Source: Chloroflexota bacterium
GTDB lineage: Bacteria > Chloroflexota > Chloroflexia > Chloroflexales > Herpetosiphonaceae
Assembly (NCBI GenBank): GCA_020161265.1
Contig: JAIUOC010000012.1
Coordinates: 124,001-188,000, forward strand
Reading direction: 5' to 3'
Length of the DNA: 64,000 bases
Each line of letters starts with the position of its first letter. Positions within the stretch are counted from its first letter, which is position 1. Below, piece after piece: positions 9,631 through 42,345 of this stretch. The notes beneath the pieces are model-generated. The model did no database searches. It had not been told where the DNA came from and was given only the letters and a program-made list of their open reading frames with translations. The translations under genes and the position numbers were made by a program.

Positions 9631-10980
9631 TTATTTGAACATGCGCATCAGGTCGCGCGGGTTTTGGCCGCCCTTGCTGAAGCGCTTCATCATCCGTTGC
9701 ATTTCGCGGAACTGCTTAACCAATGCATTGACATCTTCGATGCGTGTGCCACTACCGACTGAGATCCGGCGCTTGCGGCTGGGATCTTTGAGTAAGTCGG
9801 GGTTACGGCGCTCTTTGATCGTCATCGATTGAATAATTGCTTCGATCCGTTTCATTTCGCGATCATCAAGGGCATCATCAAGCTCTTTCATTTGGCGAAT
9901 TTGCTTGCCTAGCCCAGGAATCATGCCCAAGATTTGTTGTAATGGGCCAAGTTTACGCATTGAGTTCATTGCGCCTAGGAAATCTTCAAAGTCGAAGGTG
10001 CCTTTGCGCATCTTCTTTTGCATTTTCTTGGCTTCATCTTTATCGTAAACTTGCTCGGCTCGCTCGATCAAGGTCATCACATCGCCCATGCCCAAAATCC
10101 GTTGGGCTAGACGATCGGGGTGGAATGGTTCGATGGCATCGGTTTTTTCGCCCGTTCCAAGGAACTTAATTGGCACTCCAGTGACTTCGCGCATCGAGAG
10201 CGCCGCCCCACCACGGGCATCGCCGTCGATTTTGGTCATAATCAAGCCAGTTAATGGCACTTTGCTATGGAAAGCCTCGGCCACTTTGACTGATTCTTGA
10301 CCGATCATGGCATCGACGACCAACATAATTTCGGTTGGGCCAATGCGTTCGACGACTTGTTGTAATTCGGTCATCAAGCGTTCGTCGATTTGCAAGCGTC
10401 CGGCAGTATCGACGATCACAAAGTTGTTGCCATTGATTCGCGCTTGCCGCAAAGCGTGCTCAGCGATATCAGGCGGAGCAACCTCAGTGCCTTCGCTATA
10501 AACCGGAATATTTAATTGCTTGCCGAGCGTTTCCAACTGCTTGATCGCGGCGGGTCGGTAGATGTCGGCGGCAACCAACAATGGCGTTTTGCCTTTTTTG
10601 CGCATATATAGCGCCAACTTGGCAGCCATGGTTGTTTTACCAGCACCTTGTAACCCGACCAACATCACAATCGTCGGTTGCTCGCGGTTTTTCGATTCGT
10701 TGATCGGCACATTGGCATCACCAAGCAAGTGCACCAACTCGTCATGAACGATTTTGATCACTTGTTGACCAGGAGTCAAACTCTTGGTGACTTCTTCGCC
10801 AATCGCTTGTTCGCGCACCCGCGCCACAAAATCTTTGACGACTTTGAAGTTAACGTCTGCTTCCAACAAGGCCAAACGCACTTCGCGCAAGCCCGCATCA
10901 ACATCAGATTCAGTTAGGCGGCCTTTGCTGCCCAACCGGTTGAAAACATCGGTTAAGCGGTCGGATAGATTCTCAAACAT
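9631..10980 (-). CDS. ffh: Signal recognition particle protein Ffh
   Basis: 449 residues from the second of two adjacent ATGs, which gives a 6-base gap to GAGG and the usual N-terminus MFENLSDRLTDVF. N domain, then the G domain with GLQGAGKTT (G1), DIYRPAA (G2), VDTAGR (G3), TKIDGDARGG (G4/closing loop), and the methionine-rich M domain with GMIPGLGKQIRQM and SMTIKERRNPDLL. GTPase that with 4.5S RNA targets nascent membrane proteins. First gene of the operon with rpsP, khpA and rimM; its leader contains an attenuator-like hairpin. Confidence 0.97.
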   Translation of the reverse strand: MFENLSDRLTDVFNRLGSKGRLTESDVDAGLREVRLALLEADVNFKVVKDFVARVREQAIGEEVTKSLTPGQQVIKIVHDELVHLLGDANVPINESKNREQPTIVMLVGLQGAGKTTMAAKLALYMRKKGKTPLLVAADIYRPAAIKQLETLGKQLNIPVYSEGTEVAPPDIAEHALRQARINGNNFVIVDTAGRLQIDERLMTELQQVVERIGPTEIMLVVDAMIGQESVKVAEAFHSKVPLTGLIMTKIDGDARGGAALSMREVTGVPIKFLGTGEKTDAIEPFHPDRLAQRILGMGDVMTLIERAEQVYDKDEAKKMQKKMRKGTFDFEDFLGAMNSMRKLGPLQQILGMIPGLGKQIRQMKELDDALDDREMKRIEAIIQSMTIKERRNPDLLKDPSRKRRISVGSGTRIEDVNALVKQFREMQRMMKRFSKGGQNPRDLMRMFK

Positions 10981-24277: not shown

Positions 24278-25039
24278 ATGCCATCAACTTTGCCGATTAT
24301 TGGGATACCGTGCGCAACCTATGCCCGACCACATCCCTATCCTCTCGCTCATGGCAATAACGAAACCTATATTCGGGCAGTTGAAGTTGCAGGTGGCGTG
24401 CCGCTCTTAATTCCTTTGGTGCAGCACGAGTCCACGCTGTTAGCGGCATTTCAGGCTGTCGATGGGTTGTTATTCGCTGGCGGGGTTGATCTCGACCCAG
24501 CTTATTATAGCGAGGAGCCGCATCCGGCGCTTGGCTCGGTCAACCGCGAACAAGATCGGGTTGAGATGCAGCTGTTGGCTTGGGCCAAGCAATTTCATAA
24601 GCCAGTTTTTGCCATCTGCCGTGGGTTTCAGTTGTTAAATGTGGCCTATGGCGGCACGCTCTATCAAGATTTACCCTCGCAGTATCAGCCAAATCTCAAC
24701 CACGATGAATCGTTTACCCGCCAACAACGCGATTTACCGGCCCACGGATTACGTCTCGCCAATGATTCCAAATTGGCTGAATTGCTGGGCACAACACCCT
24801 TTGCCGTCAACACCATGCATCATCAAGGGGTCAAAGATCTGGGGAATGAGCTACAGGCAGTCGGTTGGTCGGATGATGGCCTGATCGAAGCGGTCGAAGA
24901 TCCGCAGCGGCCATGGGTTGTGGGCGTGCAGTGTCACCCCGAAGAAATGGTGCGCGGCGAGGATTTACGCTGGCAGGCGATTTTCAAGGCCTTTGTTGAA
25001 GCTGCCAAAGTATGTCGCAACGAGGCGATTCAGGCATGA
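24278..25039 (+). CDS. Gamma-glutamyl hydrolase-like class I amidotransferase (PuuD-like)
   Basis: 253 residues; AAGGAG 8 bases before the ATG. Class I glutamine amidotransferase fold with nucleophile Cys114 in AICRGFQLLN and His220/Glu222 in VQCHPEE. GGVDLDPAYY near residue 69 is typical of gamma-glutamyl-GABA hydrolase (PuuD) relatives. Probably hydrolyses a gamma-glutamyl amide. It overlaps murI by the ATGA quartet, so it is co-translated with a glutamate-metabolising enzyme. Confidence 0.88.
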   Translation: MPSTLPIIGIPCATYARPHPYPLAHGNNETYIRAVEVAGGVPLLIPLVQHESTLLAAFQAVDGLLFAGGVDLDPAYYSEEPHPALGSVNREQDRVEMQLLAWAKQFHKPVFAICRGFQLLNVAYGGTLYQDLPSQYQPNLNHDESFTRQQRDLPAHGLRLANDSKLAELLGTTPFAVNTMHHQGVKDLGNELQAVGWSDDGLIEAVEDPQRPWVVGVQCHPEEMVRGEDLRWQAIFKAFVEAAKVCRNEAIQA

Positions 25040-25800
25040 AAGACCAACCAATTGGCATGTTCGATTCGGGGGTTGGTGGCTTATCGACCTTACGTGATCT
25101 GCGGGCGCTCTTGCCGCACGAAAATATTATCTACTACGCCGATACTGGTAATTGTCCGTATGGTGGGCGTTCGCACGAAGAAATTGTGGCTTTATCTGAA
25201 CGCATCACCCATCTTTTGCTCGAACGCGGGGTTAAATTGATTGTCGTAGCCTGCAACACTGCGACGCTGCATGCCGTTGATTATTTGCGCGAACATTTCA
25301 GCCTTAGTTTTGTGGGGATGGAGCCAGGCATCAAGCCTGCGATTGCCCAAACCAAAACTGATGTGGTTGGTGTGATGGCGACCCAAGCCACCGTTGCAGG
25401 TGAACGATTTCAGCGCTTGATTGCCCGTTATGCAGGCGATGTCCAGGTTGTGCCGCAAGCATGCCCAGGTTTGGTCGAATTAATCGAGGCGGGCGAGTTG
25501 CAAAGTGAAACAACCCGCGATGCTGTGGCCCGTTATGTTGCACCATTGCTCAAGGCAGGTGCTGATACGATTGTGTTGGGCTGCACCCATTATCCATTTT
25601 TGCGCCCGTTGATTGCCGATGTTGCTGGGCCAAACGTCGCCTTGCTCGATACTGGTGCGGCGGTCGCTCGCCAAACCCAACGCTTGCTGGCAGCAGCCAA
25701 TTTGCTCAACCTACAAACATCGCAAGGCAGCATCGAATGGCTCACCAGTGGCGATCCTGCCCATTTTGCTAAAATTCGGCAATGTTTAGAAATCGAGTAA
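25036..25800 (+). CDS. murI: Glutamate racemase
   Basis: 254 residues from the ATG that overlaps the preceding stop (ATGA). Both catalytic cysteines are present: Cys73 in VACNTATLHA and Cys183 in LGCTHYPFL. FDSGVGGLSTL (9-19) binds the substrate. Supplies D-glutamate for peptidoglycan. Four bases separate its stop from the first VWA gene, so that gene may be in the same transcript. Confidence 0.96.
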   Translation: MKDQPIGMFDSGVGGLSTLRDLRALLPHENIIYYADTGNCPYGGRSHEEIVALSERITHLLLERGVKLIVVACNTATLHAVDYLREHFSLSFVGMEPGIKPAIAQTKTDVVGVMATQATVAGERFQRLIARYAGDVQVVPQACPGLVELIEAGELQSETTRDAVARYVAPLLKAGADTIVLGCTHYPFLRPLIADVAGPNVALLDTGAAVARQTQRLLAAANLLNLQTSQGSIEWLTSGDPAHFAKIRQCLEIE

Positions 25801-25804
25801 GCCT

Positions 25805-27172
25805 ATGACGAGCTTAGATCTCAGGCTCACCCTTTCACGCAGCAGCGTGCCCGCAAACACTGGCGAACAAGTTTTGTATGTTTTAGCTGAGGTTGTTGGC
25901 CAAGGCAAAACCAACCAGCGTGCGCCGGTGCATTGTGTGTTGTTGGTCGATTGTTCGCCTTCGATGCGTGTGCCAATTGCTGATGCGGCCTTGTTTCGCG
26001 AATTAATGCGCCGTGGTGCTGCCCACGAGGTCATGCTCGATGGCGTGCCAGTCTGGAAAATTCGCGATGATTTAATGGATGAGGTGCGGCGACGTGCTCA
26101 AAGCCCAAGTCGTTGGCTGGGGCAGGCCGTGCGCGGCGCAGCTGAGCGCCTAAATGCCGATGATCAACTTTCGATCATTGGTTTTGCTGAAAAAGCTCAT
26201 GCGGTGCTCAAAGCCAAATCGCCAACCGATGTGGTGCGCTTGGAAGGCTCAGTTGCCATCCTTGAACGCGGCGATCTTGGCCGCAGCACGCGGCTGGCTC
26301 CAGGCTTGCGCAGCACGATCGATCTGCTTGATAGCATGCCTAGCACTGGTTTTTCGCAACGGATCGTTGTGCTAACCGATGGCTTTGTTGAAGATGAACA
26401 ACAAGCCTTTGCCTATGCTCGCCATCTGGCCGCCCGTTCAATTCCGGTCTCGACGATTGGCTTGGGGGTTGAGTTTCAAGAGCAATTGCTGATGAGCTTT
26501 GCTGATCAGAGCGGTGGTCAATCCAGCTTTATCACCGACCCTAGCGACTTGCCCAATTTGCTTGATGTGGAGTTTGGCAAGGCCCATGCGATTATCGCTC
26601 AAAAAGCGCGGCTCGATTTGCGGCTTGCTCATGATGTGCAAATCAAACGAATTTTACGCATCAGGCCAGCCTTGGGCGAAGTGCCAACCCCTGAATTTGA
26701 GGCTGGTTCGGGCAGTTTAAGCTTAGGCTCAATCGAACAACGGGCCAAAGCCGCGTGGTTGCTCGAACTGCGTATCCCTGATCATGTACCAAATATTTAT
26801 CGTTTGTTGCGGCTTTCGTTGCAAGCTGACGATCCCCAAGGCCAAAGTTTGGAGCCAATTAACCGCGATGTGGTGGTCGAATATCATCCGAACGCTGATC
26901 AGGCGCTCAACCCAGAGCTTGTAGCGATTTTGGAACGGGTGACGGCATGGCGCTTGCAAAACAAAGCGCTGGAGCAAGCTGCTCAGGGCGATCAAGCTGG
27001 GGCAACTCGCCAATTGCAGGCCGCAGTCACGCGCTTGGTCGATTTGGGCGAGCATGAATTGGCCAAACAAACTGCTGCTGCCAACCAAACATTGCAAGAA
27101 ACTGGCCAAATTAACCCTGAGCAAACCAAAACTTTGCGCTATGCAACCAGAAGATTGACAGAAGAACGATAA
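25805..27172 (+). CDS. VWA-domain protein 1
   Basis: 455 residues, no signal peptide. The VWA domain (about 40-260) has the MIDAS motif DCSPS (DxSxS) with an insertion of some 50 residues after it (an Arg-rich segment with VWKIRDDLMDEVRRRA), then ILRSTID, and VVLTDGFVEDE. A beta-rich region follows, then a helical C-terminus (about 385-455) ending in LRYATRRLTEER that recurs in both other VWA proteins of the cluster. Probably an intracellular metal-dependent scaffold. Starts 4 bases after murI with a weak ribosome binding site. Confidence 0.88.
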   Translation: MTSLDLRLTLSRSSVPANTGEQVLYVLAEVVGQGKTNQRAPVHCVLLVDCSPSMRVPIADAALFRELMRRGAAHEVMLDGVPVWKIRDDLMDEVRRRAQSPSRWLGQAVRGAAERLNADDQLSIIGFAEKAHAVLKAKSPTDVVRLEGSVAILERGDLGRSTRLAPGLRSTIDLLDSMPSTGFSQRIVVLTDGFVEDEQQAFAYARHLAARSIPVSTIGLGVEFQEQLLMSFADQSGGQSSFITDPSDLPNLLDVEFGKAHAIIAQKARLDLRLAHDVQIKRILRIRPALGEVPTPEFEAGSGSLSLGSIEQRAKAAWLLELRIPDHVPNIYRLLRLSLQADDPQGQSLEPINRDVVVEYHPNADQALNPELVAILERVTAWRLQNKALEQAAQGDQAGATRQLQAAVTRLVDLGEHELAKQTAAANQTLQETGQINPEQTKTLRYATRRLTEER

Positions 27173-27252
27173 TCAGAAACATTCAAGTCATGTTATTCGT
27201 CCAAGAACAAGGAATTTTTTGTTGTTCTAGACCTATTCAGAGGAGTTGACCT

Positions 27253-28899
27253 GTGTCTGAGCCGACTCAACCGATGACTGGTGGAACCCAACCTCTCAAC
27301 CCCGTCAACCAGCCAGAGGAACACGAACCCTTTGCGATTGGCACTGTGTTGAAGGATATTTATCGGGTAACCGCCTTGCTGACCGATACTCCAACCTTGC
27401 GCGTCTATCGCGTGGCGCTGTTGGAGCCATGGGATCATTGTGCTCGTTGTGGCGCAGCCTTACAAGCGAGCGATCAGTTTTGCGAAGAGTGCGGGGCGCA
27501 GGTCGAAGAACAAACTGCTCTGTTACAAGAAACTCCGGCGGCGCAGCCAGTTGGCGCAGCGTTGCTTGATGATTTACCCGATGACCCCGCCCGCGCGGCC
27601 TTGCCTACCGTGCGTGAGGTTTTTGTGGGCGAAGATTCGCGTTTTGCGGTGTTGCCCGATGGCACGAGCTTGGTGCGATTCGACACCTTGCTGAGCGAAC
27701 CAAATACGTTTGTTGATCAAACTGATGCTGTCGATATTGGGATTCAAGTTGCCCGCGCTTTGGCTTATTTGCATCGCAATGGCTTGGCCCTCGGTCAATT
27801 GACCTTGGCTGATTTGGCTTTGACCAACAAGCGCGAAATTAAACTGGCCGATGCTGGGGCGATTCGCCGCTCGTTGGGCAAAGAAGATCAGCTTGATGAT
27901 GTTGAACAATTGGGTTTAGTGCTTGAAAAAATGGCTGGGATTCAGCGCCAAACCCGCCGCCTTGATGATGCGAATAATCCTTCGCCGCTCGATAGTGCAT
28001 TTGCCACAATTTTGAGCGATCTCCGCGCCAAGCGCATCAACGATGCTAGCATTTTAGCGCAAACCCTCGAAACCCTGCTGGCCGAACAGGCTACGCCGAT
28101 CAGTTTGCGAGTACGGACTGGCTATGCTACCGATGTTGGCATGATTCGCGATCACAACGAAGATAGCGTGCTGACCTGGGATTTACGCTTGAACTGGGAT
28201 GCCAAGCCAGTCAACGTTGGCCTATACGTGGTAGCTGACGGCATGGGTGGTCACGAAGGTGGCGAGGTCGCCAGTGGTTTGGCGATCACGACTACTGCCC
28301 AAACCCTCGTGCCAATGTTGCTTGATCCAGAATTACATGCTGGGCCAGTTTCGAGCAAGCACCTCGCCGAATTGGTCAAGCAAGCAGCATTTCAGGCCAA
28401 TCAAGCGGTTTACGAAGAAAGTGTGCGCCGCAAAAACGATATGGGTACAACGTTGACTATGGCAGTGGTTATCGGCGATCGGGCGATTGTAGGCAATGTT
28501 GGTGATAGCCGTACTTATCTTTATCGCGATGGCAAATTGCAACGCATCAGCAAAGATCATTCGTTAGTCCAGCGCCTAATCGATATTGGCCAACTTGATC
28601 CTGATGATATTTACACCCACCCCCAACGCAACGCGATTCTTAAATCGCTTGGCGATAGCGGCGACCCTGGCACCGACACGTTCGAGGTGCAATTGCAGCC
28701 TAACGATGCGCTATTTCTCTGCTCTGACGGCATGTGGGAAATGGTGCGCGACCCCAAAATGGCGACACTTTTCGCTGAACATGCCAACCCCGCCGATCTC
28801 TGCGATGCCTTGATTGAGGCTGGTAATGCTGGCGGCGGCGAAGATAACATCAGCGTGGTGGTGGTGCGTTTTGATGCCCTTCCAACAGTTGAACACTAA
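27253..28899 (+). CDS. Zinc ribbon / pseudokinase / PP2C phosphatase fusion
   Basis: 548 residues from a GTG with AGGAG 7 bases upstream. Residues 30-60 look like a kinase N-lobe (LKDIYRVTALL), interrupted by a four-Cys ribbon (C63, C66, C77, C80). Residues 120-275 resemble a kinase C-lobe (ALAYLHRNGLALGQLTLADL, IKLADAGAIRRS) but HRD is LGQ and DFG is DAG, so it is a pseudokinase. Residues 285-545 are PP2C with all metal motifs: HNEDS, ADGMGGHEGGE, VGDSRTYLY and EDNISVVVV. Ser/Thr phosphatase that may be gated by the pseudokinase. Lies inside a VWA gene cluster. Confidence 0.9.
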   Translation: MSEPTQPMTGGTQPLNPVNQPEEHEPFAIGTVLKDIYRVTALLTDTPTLRVYRVALLEPWDHCARCGAALQASDQFCEECGAQVEEQTALLQETPAAQPVGAALLDDLPDDPARAALPTVREVFVGEDSRFAVLPDGTSLVRFDTLLSEPNTFVDQTDAVDIGIQVARALAYLHRNGLALGQLTLADLALTNKREIKLADAGAIRRSLGKEDQLDDVEQLGLVLEKMAGIQRQTRRLDDANNPSPLDSAFATILSDLRAKRINDASILAQTLETLLAEQATPISLRVRTGYATDVGMIRDHNEDSVLTWDLRLNWDAKPVNVGLYVVADGMGGHEGGEVASGLAITTTAQTLVPMLLDPELHAGPVSSKHLAELVKQAAFQANQAVYEESVRRKNDMGTTLTMAVVIGDRAIVGNVGDSRTYLYRDGKLQRISKDHSLVQRLIDIGQLDPDDIYTHPQRNAILKSLGDSGDPGTDTFEVQLQPNDALFLCSDGMWEMVRDPKMATLFAEHANPADLCDALIEAGNAGGGEDNISVVVVRFDALPTVEH

Positions 28900-28911
28900 G
28901 AGGATGGAATA

Positions 28912-30159
28912 ATGACTGAACCTGTAGCACTTTCAGCAGTTTGGAGCCGCGAACCCTTGCCAAGCGGCACCAGCCAAGTTAATTATGTCTTGATTCAGGC
29001 CAAACCACATCATGTGCCGACTGTTCAAGCGGCTCCAGCACTCAACTTTTGTTTGGTGCTTGATCGCTCTGGCTCGATGGCTGGCGATAAAATTCAACAT
29101 TTGCGCGAAGCTGTGCGCGAAATTGTGGCCAATTTACGCCCAATCGATGCAGTAAGCATTGTGTTGTTCGATGATACCTTGGAAGTTTTAGTGCCAGCCC
29201 GTTTGGCCGACGATCTCCCAGCCTTGCAAAATGCGATCGAATCAATCGGCGAGCAAGGTGGCACGGCCATGTCGTTGGGCTTGCAAGCAGGCCTTGCCGA
29301 ATTGCAAAAATTCCAGGCCGCCGATCGAGTTGGCCGCGTGCTGCTCTTGACCGACGGCCAAACCTGGGGCGATGAAGATACCTGCCGCGATTTAGCCAAA
29401 CAAATTGGCGATTTAGGCGTTTCGATCACAGCACTGGGCTTGGGCACTGAATGGAACGAAGCCTTGCTCGATGATTTGGCTACAGCATCCAACGGCGAAT
29501 CGGATTATATTGCCGACCCTAGCCAAATTAGCAAATATTTTCAACAAACTTTGCAAAGCGCCCAAACTACCACCGTGGTTAATGCCCGTTTGCTGTTGCG
29601 TTTGTTGCCTGGAGTTACGCCACGGGCAGTTTATCGCGTTCAGCCAACAATTGCCAATCTTGGCTACAAGCCGATTGGCGAGCGCGAAGTCACGGTTAGC
29701 ATTGGCGAAATTGCTGGCGATGGCGCAAGTGTTTTGGTCGATGTGATGCTGCCAGAGCGTGAAGCAGGCACATTCCGCATCGCCCAAGCCGAATTGCAAT
29801 ACGATGCGCCAGTGCTTGGCATCAAAGAAGGCAAAATTAAAATCGATATTCCTTTGAGCTTTAATATCGATCCCAAGGCCAGCGTGGTTAATCCACCAAT
29901 TATGAACACAGTCGAAAAAGTGACCGCCTTCAAATTGCAAACTCGCGCACTTTCTGAGGCCGAGGCGGGCAATATTGGCAGTGCAACCCAAAAATTACGT
30001 GCTGCTGCCACCCGTTTGCTCGATTTAGGCGAAACCGAGTTGGCCCAAACCATGGAACAAAGTGCCCAACAACTTGAGGCTGGTGGTCAAATTGCAGCCG
30101 CTGATCAAAAAGCCCTGCGCTACGCCACCCGCAAACTTACCCAAAAACTCGAAGAGTAA
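28912..30159 (+). CDS. VWA-domain protein 2
   Basis: 415 residues, cytoplasmic. VWA domain at about 40-225 with a perfect MIDAS (LDRSGSMAGDK) and LLLTDGQTWGDE; then a beta-rich region and the helical C-terminus (about 345-415) with ATRLLDLGETELA and ALRYATRKLTQKL shared across the cluster. Starts 12 bases after the PP2C stop with an AGAGGATGG Shine-Dalgarno, so the two are co-translated. Confidence 0.9.
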   Translation: MTEPVALSAVWSREPLPSGTSQVNYVLIQAKPHHVPTVQAAPALNFCLVLDRSGSMAGDKIQHLREAVREIVANLRPIDAVSIVLFDDTLEVLVPARLADDLPALQNAIESIGEQGGTAMSLGLQAGLAELQKFQAADRVGRVLLLTDGQTWGDEDTCRDLAKQIGDLGVSITALGLGTEWNEALLDDLATASNGESDYIADPSQISKYFQQTLQSAQTTTVVNARLLLRLLPGVTPRAVYRVQPTIANLGYKPIGEREVTVSIGEIAGDGASVLVDVMLPEREAGTFRIAQAELQYDAPVLGIKEGKIKIDIPLSFNIDPKASVVNPPIMNTVEKVTAFKLQTRALSEAEAGNIGSATQKLRAAATRLLDLGETELAQTMEQSAQQLEAGGQIAAADQKALRYATRKLTQKLEE

Positions 30160-30162
30160 TTG

Positions 30163-30240
30163 TAAAACATAGAGCATAGAACATAGAACATAATGCTTAT
30201 TAATCTATGTTCTATGCTCTATGTTCTATGTTCTCTATTA
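30163..30240. repeat. Heptad repeat block (TATGTTC / TATGCTC units, inverted pair)
   Basis: Left arm AACATAGAGCATAGAACATA and right arm TATGTTCTATGCTCTATG are near-perfect complements made of 7-base units. Lies between the second and third VWA genes and could form a long hairpin in their shared transcript. Confidence 0.85.
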
Positions 30241-30252
30241 AGGAGATCACCA

Positions 30253-31518
30253 ATGGCAGGTGAAGTTCAATTAACTGGTACGTTGGCTCGTCCGGCGTTG
30301 CCAGCCTTGCAAACCCAGCAGGTGGTTTATTTGCTGCTGGATATTACGGCAACACCAGCGGTTGCTCACGTTCAAATGCCAGTTAATGTGAGCTTCGTGC
30401 TCGATCATAGTGGCTCGATGAAGGGCGACAAAATGCGTTGTGTGCGCGAAGCAACTCAACGCGCTTTGGGCTTGATGGGGCCGCAAGATATTGTCTCGGT
30501 GGTGATTTTCGACCATCGCCGCGAAACGATCATCAGTGCTCAGCCTGTGCGCAATGTTGCTGCGCTGCAATCTGAGGTTGGCAAAATTAAAGATGCAGGC
30601 GGTACAAAAATCGCCCCCGCGCTGGAAGCCGCCTTGAATGAAATTCGCCGTAGCCAAAATGCCAACACGATTAGCCGAATTATTTTGCTGACCGACGGCC
30701 AAACCGAGGGCGAACGTGATTGTTTGCGCTTGGCCGAAGAAATTGGCAAAGCTAGCGTGCCATTGACGGCACTGGGCGTTGGTGACGACTGGAACGAAGA
30801 TCTGTTGATCGAAATGGCTAATCGTTCAGGTGGCGTTGCCGAATATTTCAGCAATCCCAACGATATTGCCTCGTTCTTCCAAGGTGCGGTGCAGCAAGCC
30901 CAATCGGCGGTGGTGCAAAACTCAGCCTTGACCTTGCGCTTTGTGCAGGGCGTTGAACCACGCGCCCTGTGGCAAGTAACTCCATTAATTCAGCAATTGC
31001 CCTATCGCCCAATTAGTGATCGGGCGGTTGGCGTGAGCCTTGGCGATATTTCCAAAGACGAACATCGGATGGTGCTGATCGAAATGCTGGTCGATCCCAA
31101 GCAGGCTGGTCAATATCGGCTGGGCCAAATCGAGGTCAACTACGATATTCCTCAATTGCAGGTGGTTGGCGAAAAAGCTCGCTACGATGTAATGTTGAAT
31201 TTTGTGGCTGATCCGGCTCAGGCAACCGGAGTTGTGCCCCAAGTGATGAATATTGTTGAAAAGGTCAGTGCCCACAAGCTGCAAACTCGCGCCTTAGAAG
31301 ATTTGGCCGAGGGCAATATTGGTGCGGCAACCCAAAAGCTTCAAGGTGCTGTGACCCGCTTGCTCAACCAAGGCGAAACCGAGCTAGCCCAAACCATGCA
31401 ACAAGAGATCGAAAATCTGCAAACCAATGGTCAGATGACCTCTGCTGGCCAAAAAACCATCAAATTTGGCACACGCAAAACCGTGCGGCTCAGCGATTTG
31501 GATCTACCAAAAAGTTAG
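30253..31518 (+). CDS. VWA-domain protein 3
   Basis: 421 residues from the ATG at 30253, chosen because AGGAG lies 7 bases upstream and the earlier in-frame codons are repeat sequence. VWA domain (about 40-225) with perfect MIDAS LDHSGSMKGDK and LLTDGQTEGE. Closest to protein 2 over its whole length (SVPLTALGVGDDWNEDLL versus SVSITALGLGTEWNEALL), so these two arose by tandem duplication. Shares the C-terminal helical module ATQKLQGAVTRLLNQGE. Confidence 0.9.
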   Translation: MAGEVQLTGTLARPALPALQTQQVVYLLLDITATPAVAHVQMPVNVSFVLDHSGSMKGDKMRCVREATQRALGLMGPQDIVSVVIFDHRRETIISAQPVRNVAALQSEVGKIKDAGGTKIAPALEAALNEIRRSQNANTISRIILLTDGQTEGERDCLRLAEEIGKASVPLTALGVGDDWNEDLLIEMANRSGGVAEYFSNPNDIASFFQGAVQQAQSAVVQNSALTLRFVQGVEPRALWQVTPLIQQLPYRPISDRAVGVSLGDISKDEHRMVLIEMLVDPKQAGQYRLGQIEVNYDIPQLQVVGEKARYDVMLNFVADPAQATGVVPQVMNIVEKVSAHKLQTRALEDLAEGNIGAATQKLQGAVTRLLNQGETELAQTMQQEIENLQTNGQMTSAGQKTIKFGTRKTVRLSDLDLPKS

Positions 31519-42149: not shown

Positions 42150-42345
42150 GACGAGGGCAACGAAACCGCGAATGCCGCGAAGAACACAAATACTTAGCTG
42201 GGTTGGAATCCTGAATATCCCAGATATTTCAGCGTACCAATCAACCACAACTTAGTGTTTCTTCGCGGCATTCGCGGTTAACTATTCGTACTCTTCGCGG
42301 CCTTCACGGTTAACTATTCGTGCTCTTCGTGTCCTTCGTAGATCA
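42150..42345. repeat. Nonamer array in inverted pair with a triplicated right arm
   Basis: AACCGCGAATGCCGCGAAGA at the left and, at the right, three successive 30-base stretches each ending in GGTTAACTATTCG (GCGGCATTCGCGGTTAAC, GCGGCCTTCACGGTTAAC, then GTGTCCTTCGT). Duplication of the arm is evident. It fills the gap between convergent genes. Confidence 0.85.

Follow-up and report, generated by a model that had tools for sequence, protein, structure and literature searches.

The four-gene cluster at positions 25805-31518 of the window (the whole 64,000-nucleotide stretch of the Herpetosiphonaceae genome that was analyzed) encodes three VWA proteins and a PP2C-type phosphatase. It probably provides the phosphatase and the scaffolds, one half of a cassette for reversible Ser/Thr phosphorylation that is conserved in Chloroflexota and would work like ArnA-ArnB, a motility switch of archaea. 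Gene content and order, predicted domain architecture, sequence conservation, the division of the cassette over two loci, and the active or inactive state of the catalytic motifs were all derived computationally.

According to the open reading frame list, all four genes are on the + strand and follow one another head to tail, in the order VWA1 (25805-27172; 455 aa), zinc-ribbon/pseudokinase/PP2C protein (27253-28899; 548 aa), VWA2 (28912-30159; 415 aa), and VWA3 (30253-31518; 421 aa). The start of VWA3 is most likely at 30253 and not at 30193 as listed, because a Shine-Dalgarno-like AAGGAGA is found just upstream of the ATG at 30253, the homologues align from the Met encoded there, and the 20 extra codons from 30193 run through a heptamer repeat. 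VWA2 is 100% identical to a protein of H. aurantiacus DSM 785. The VWA1-PP2C-VWA2-VWA3 order, for which the initial annotation suggested a synteny check, is the same in all six Herpetosiphonaceae loci. A gene that reads as glutamate racemase (murI; 25012-25800) ends 5 bp upstream of VWA1 and adjoins the cluster in the same six loci and not elsewhere; downstream of VWA3, there is a convergent gene that reads as TspO-like. The spacer between VWA2 and VWA3 contains the heptamer AACATAG as an inverted pair (30166-30234), and exact copies of CATAGAACATAGAACATAG are found at 29 places in the genome, with 0 for the reversed-pattern control. The spacer varies in length among close strains: it measures 93 bp here and 80 to 89 bp in two other loci (L010 and L011), and a GC-rich palindrome inserted in L009 and L012 brings it to 230 and 220 bp, respectively. 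Elsewhere in the window (42260-42337), a 32-bp unit is tandemly repeated in 2.4 copies.

Pfam searches identify a VWA domain in all three VWA proteins, each with a complete MIDAS motif (DCSPS in VWA1, DRSGS in VWA2, and DHSGS in VWA3), just as the initial annotation had it. A TerF-like Pfam match stays below the cutoff. The MIDAS residues, D51, S53, S55, T118, and D148 in VWA2 numbering, show no variation among 36 aligned family members or among 40 nonredundant members drawn from Chloroflexota, cyanobacteria, and Deinococcota. The proteins align over their full length, with 28 to 30% identity to VWA1, and have in common an ATxxLxxAxTRLxxxGE motif and an [AG]TR[KR] tail, which bears out the proposal that they end in one shared C-terminal module. 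Within Herpetosiphonaceae, neither of the two findings named in advance as damaging to the initial reading, a variable gene order or unrelated C-terminal modules, was made. In VWA1, which combines its MIDAS with a beta-sandwich and the C-terminal module, an insertion of ~45 residues follows the MIDAS loop. The VWA1 clade is seen in Herpetosiphonaceae only, and its position in the phylogenetic tree is unsafe (long-branch warning). VWA2 groups with the cassette VWA proteins of Chloroflexales (support, 99/99), and VWA3, which also has both the C-terminal module and the tail, belongs to a clade whose examined Chloroflexaceae members are solitary. In one genome (G166, locus L140), a VWA3-type gene adjoins a divergent kinase-FHA fusion; therefore, some genomes may provide VWA3 with a kinase of its own.

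The tail motif is found at T448-R-R-L451 in VWA1 (27146-27157, + strand), T406-R-K-L409 in VWA2 (30127-30138, + strand), and T407-R-K-T410 in VWA3 (31471-31482, + strand), as located by alignment. In the C-terminal module of the 36 family members, T359, T367, and R407 (VWA2 numbering) are invariant, and T406 is nearly so; among the 40 nonredundant members, position 406 holds Thr in 78% and Ser in 10%, position 407 Arg in 88%, and position 409 Leu in 75%. Of 130 distinct members, 112 have a TRx[LTIV] pattern within their last 45 residues, compared to a mean of 9.9 and a maximum of 19 in 300 rounds of shuffling, a comparison that ignores kinship. When the last 75 residues are searched, the pattern is found in 83 of the 84 members with an FHA gene no more than 4 genes away, the sole exception being a broken gene (L062). 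Distant VWA relatives outside the cassette (L142, L143, and L145) also lack the tail motif. Two of these (L142 and L145), located on Deinococcus and Cyanobacterium plasmids, are preceded by a MerR regulator and have no kinase, PP2C, or FHA gene alongside. The tail Thr might serve as a docking site for an FHA domain, which makes T406 of VWA2 a candidate phospho-threonine site; it lies where the last helix ends and could also be conserved for structural reasons.

In its AlphaFold model (mean pLDDT, 92.2; pTM, 0.88), VWA2 folds into two beta strands followed by the VWA domain, the remainder of the beta-sandwich, and a C-terminal four-helix bundle (residues 328 to 407; 29893-30132, + strand) with helices at residues 328 to 351, 355 to 371, 375 to 389, and 396 to 407. 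The latter takes the place of the regulatory helical bundle of ArnB, whose VWA domain likewise splits a beta-sandwich (PMC12852372), and VWA2 is accordingly predicted to have the three-part ArnB architecture. In VIA-align comparisons, the best structural match to the model, and one that covers its full length, is 4FX5, a VWA protein from Catenulispora acidiphila (Z of 38.1; 394 aa aligned). ArnB (8S05) gives a Z of 33.2 with an rmsd of 4.2 over 371 aligned residues (residues 3 to 412), and ArnE (5A8J) gives a Z of 27.6; next come ITIH proteins (Z of 24.9) and lone VWA domains, with all others at Z of ≤25. Foldseek additionally matches the model to Sec23/24, a likeness also noted by the authors of the ArnB structure (PMC12852372). 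In phmmer searches, residues 38 to 413 of VWA2 match ArnB with an E value of 1.6e-13. In the profile alignment with ArnB, the sequence gives little signal (8 bits) for the C-terminal part, where the link between the two proteins comes from the predicted fold and not from the sequence. The Pfam domain ArnB_C (PF18677) has no match in the genome at an E value of ≤1, with a Sulfolobus control matched, and VWA2 is for this reason described as being built like ArnB and not as its ortholog.

The ArnB phosphopeptides RMELIETTRR and ISESIETTRR have been detected (PMC6509490), and the T353A/T354A replacement weakens FHA binding when phosphorylation has been brief (PMC12852372). This site reads TTRRI and is similar to the ATRRL tail seen here, although the two are not aligned column to column. 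In a weak alignment, the invariant T359 of VWA2 corresponds to the Thr in the SEAT sequence of ArnB, which by count is T322, a later phosphosite (PMC12852372).

In the second protein of the cluster, Pfam recognizes a PP2C domain, a zinc ribbon, and, weakly, a kinase domain. The PP2C domain (residues 287 to 540; 28111-28872, + strand) retains the metal-binding motifs RDHNED, DGMGG, SDG, and GGEDN, and its fold matches tPphA with a Z of 34.5. Profile-profile comparison relates the preceding region (residues ~37 to 240; 27361-27972, + strand) to kinases with a probability of 96.5% and an E value of 8.7e-10, in agreement with the earlier description of a PP2C fused to a pseudokinase and zinc ribbon. 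A fold search with the model of the whole protein gave a list filled by the PP2C domain, with no kinase among the matches listed. The zinc ribbon, C63-x2-C66 ... C77-x2-C80 (27439-27492, + strand), lies inside the N-lobe region of the pseudokinase, and its four Cys residues are invariant in 34 homologues. It replaces the region of the beta3 Lys; the activation segment is deleted, and the Asp equivalent to that of HRD is lost in 34 of 39 homologues. By its motifs, the pseudokinase is dead across its family and not in Herpetosiphon alone. The second-best NCBIfam match is the serine/threonine phosphatase NF011149 (PRK14559), which covers the region just before the PP2C domain and the domain itself (residues 210 to 546) with a score of 127, far below the curated cutoff of 374.

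The VWA family is found in 113 of 301 sampled Chloroflexota genomes at an E value of ≤1e-30. Within five genes of the VWA gene, 59 Chloroflexota loci, which were hand-chosen from the match list (some for coverage of families or paralogues), are a nonrandom set, and include some incomplete contigs, contain a kinase in 48 cases, a PP2C in 52, an FHA gene in 51, and all three in 43. The plain cassette encodes a Ser/Thr kinase, a PP2C, a VWA protein, and a protein of about 165 to 250 aa that, in most Chloroflexota cassettes, carries a zinc ribbon followed by an FHA domain, the same domain order as in ArnA. Around the VWA2 orthologue of many Chloroflexaceae and Roseiflexaceae, there are genes for a PP2C, a zinc-ribbon/pseudokinase/PP2C protein, a zinc-ribbon kinase, the VWA protein, and a zinc-ribbon-FHA protein, often with a divergent FHA-ABC exporter. 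The kinase is in place in about 20 of these Chloroflexaceae and Roseiflexaceae loci and absent in others; approximately half of the VWA2 loci of Chloroflexales have no kinase between PP2C and VWA, and four genomes with kinase-free loci (G301, G302, G303, and G305) contain no close relative of the cassette kinase at an E value of ≤1e-70. Similar sets are encoded on Gloeothece and Nostoc plasmids (VWA-FHA-PP2C-kinase) and on a D. radiodurans plasmid (VWA-kinase-FHA-PP2C). The catalytic-loop motif is kept in 74 of 75 cassette kinases, the exception reading IHQDVKPAN, and the phosphate-binding motifs of the FHA domain are conserved as well (GR in 96 of 96, S[RK]xH in 93 of 96). An active-looking kinase stands side by side with the pseudokinase-PP2C protein in relatives, which argues that the pseudokinase is not a cassette kinase in decay. 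The initial annotation was right to describe an inactive kinase region fused to the phosphatase, which is, however, no degraded form of the cassette's own kinase.

Herpetosiphonaceae have this cassette split over two loci, with the phosphatase and VWA half at the window locus in 6 of 6 genomes. Another contig of the same genome (C3; locus L090) encodes an FHA-ABC protein, a short PP2C, a kinase, and a zinc-ribbon-FHA protein and has no VWA gene. Of 34 kinase matches, this kinase is the best, sharing 58% identity with the kinase of Chloroflexales cassettes, and the zinc-ribbon-FHA protein is 50% identical to its Chloroflexales counterpart. A half of this type is also found in three further Herpetosiphonaceae (L197, L198, and L199), that is, in four of four examined, and the two halves add up to the Chloroflexaceae cassette, with VWA1 and VWA3 in addition. 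The kinase and FHA reader that seem to be missing from the window therefore lie elsewhere in the genome, and, by the argument from synteny, they would act on the window VWA proteins. Contig C8 (locus L091) carries a second, unsplit cassette, which consists of a kinase with a PQQ-like propeller, a PP2C, a VWA protein that groups in the tree with those of kinase-PP2C-VWA-FHA cassettes, and a zinc-ribbon-FHA protein of 172 aa. The statement that the unit has no kinase of its own therefore holds for the window locus and fails for the cell, and the view of it as a whole phosphatase-plus-scaffold unit overlooked the FHA partner.

Two kinds of neighboring genes deserve mention. At the C3 locus (L090:2394-5030) and a number of Chloroflexales loci, an FHA-FHA-ABC exporter with a zinc ribbon is divergent from the short PP2C; this protein, reminiscent of mycobacterial Rv1747, is a possible output of the cassette. 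The genes on either side of the C8 cassette are of the RodA/FtsW and RodZ-like types (L091:2618-3757 and 9841-10812), an arrangement that recalls the actinobacterial pknAB-pstP-rodA-fha locus. A rodA gene is found beside the cassette in two loci only (L091 and L137), and murI is limited to Herpetosiphonaceae, so neither is counted as evidence of the output.

By analogy with ArnA-ArnB, the active-looking Hanks-type kinase, encoded in Herpetosiphon at the second locus, would phosphorylate the VWA proteins on threonines of their C-terminal bundle or tail; the zinc-ribbon-FHA protein from the same locus would read the phospho-threonine and dock, and the PP2C encoded beside the VWA proteins would reverse the modification. 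All four kinds of proteins would thus act on one another. The dead kinase domain with its inserted zinc ribbon is probably a targeting or sensing module of the phosphatase. As Herpetosiphonaceae carry three VWA paralogues beside it, one eraser may serve several scaffolds. Among the closest known systems is that of Sulfolobus acidocaldarius, with the kinases ArnC and ArnD and the phosphatase PP2A, where, as predicted for VWA2, the VWA domain of ArnB lies inside a beta-sandwich followed by a helical bundle on which the kinase and phosphatase act (PMC6509490, PMC12852372). Its partner ArnA has a zinc finger and then FHA, as does the cassette FHA protein, encoded for the window VWA proteins at the separate locus, and the TTRRI phosphosite region of ArnB resembles the TRRL tail. 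In contrast to ArnA-ArnB, the cassette is bacterial, uses a PP2C fused to a dead kinase domain instead of PP2A, has no detectable ArnB_C domain, includes extra VWA paralogues, and is split; a role in the archaellum is not expected in a bacterium. ArnB-like proteins outside ArnAB are mostly not involved in phosphorylation-dependent processes, according to the authors of the ArnAB structure (PMC12852372).

The TerY-P triad of the Ter literature comprises a VWA protein, a PP2C, and a kinase in one neighborhood. The initial annotation saw the cluster as a variant of it, a unit of the Ter stress-response network whose kinase had moved into the phosphatase and become inactive. The same three types of domains are indeed involved, and neighboring genes for a zinc-ribbon kinase, a PP2C, and a stand-alone VWA protein are known in related systems (PMC7159879), so a kinship in kind holds. 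We nevertheless consider this reading unlikely and reject membership in TerY-P: TerD is not found in the genome (controls matched), the sole kinase region at the window locus is dead by its motifs, the VWA protein is predicted to have three domains as in ArnB rather than a lone VWA, relatives encode an active-looking kinase alongside the pseudokinase-PP2C, and the recurrent fourth partner is an FHA protein. A co-chaperone of the MoxR-vWA sort, in which the MIDAS would drive work with an AAA+ protein, is far less probable still. The VWA domains have a complete MIDAS, and multicellular bacteria often have systems of this sort (PMC7159879), but no gene among the window neighbors reads as an AAA+ partner, and the recurrent partners are the kinase, PP2C, and FHA proteins.

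The Herpetosiphon cluster might instead be an independent phosphatase-scaffold unit, untied from the kinase/FHA locus, with its VWA proteins binding other ligands, such as cell wall partners, through the MIDAS. It does contain three VWA proteins with no kinase or FHA gene alongside; kinase-free loci recur in other genomes (L034, L048, L122, and part of the Chloroflexaceae), and the murI gene is adjacent in all six Herpetosiphonaceae. This is rather unlikely, given that conservation persists in the tail motif, in the threonines of the bundle, and in the PP2C motifs, that the complementary half is kept in all Herpetosiphonaceae examined, and that the murI linkage is confined to this family. The type VI secretion system (T6SS) has a comparable set, PpkA-PppA-Fha, in which a kinase, a PP2C-type phosphatase, and an FHA protein are arranged around threonine phosphorylation (PMC5995506), and PpkA of P. 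aeruginosa also has a VWA domain (PMC1262709). The cassette shares the kinase, PP2C-type phosphatase, and FHA domains with it, whereas its VWA is a separate ArnB-like protein; the T6SS pathway was rejected, as the VipA family is not found in the genome. A role in antiphage defense was rejected as well, PADLOC having given generic kinase and PP2C matches only.

The half-cassette reading fits among known kinds of systems, namely, archaeal ArnAB, kinase-PP2C-VWA neighborhoods (PMC7159879), and PpkA-PppA-Fha (PMC5995506); a literature search, thin on subscription papers, found no published bacterial kinase/PP2C/VWA/FHA cassette. More tentatively, a bacterial version of the ArnA-ArnB switch, encoded together with a kinase and PP2Cs of its own, might occur widely in Chloroflexota and also in cyanobacteria and Deinococcus, with the T-R-x-L tail as the FHA docking site; in Herpetosiphon, one phosphatase guided by a dead kinase would then serve three competing VWA scaffolds, with the writer and reader at another locus.

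The neighbors of the pseudokinase-PP2C protein can now be seen in most genomes, and a cluster that looks "kinase-free" can turn out to be one part of a system divided over two loci. The cassette also offers a defined Thr and a defined reader for testing. ArnB-like structures are known from across life, including ArnB itself, Sec23/24, 4FX5, and YfbK, and the conserved set of VWA, kinase, PP2C, and zinc-ribbon-FHA proteins suggests an old phospho-switch with a wide distribution among bacteria.
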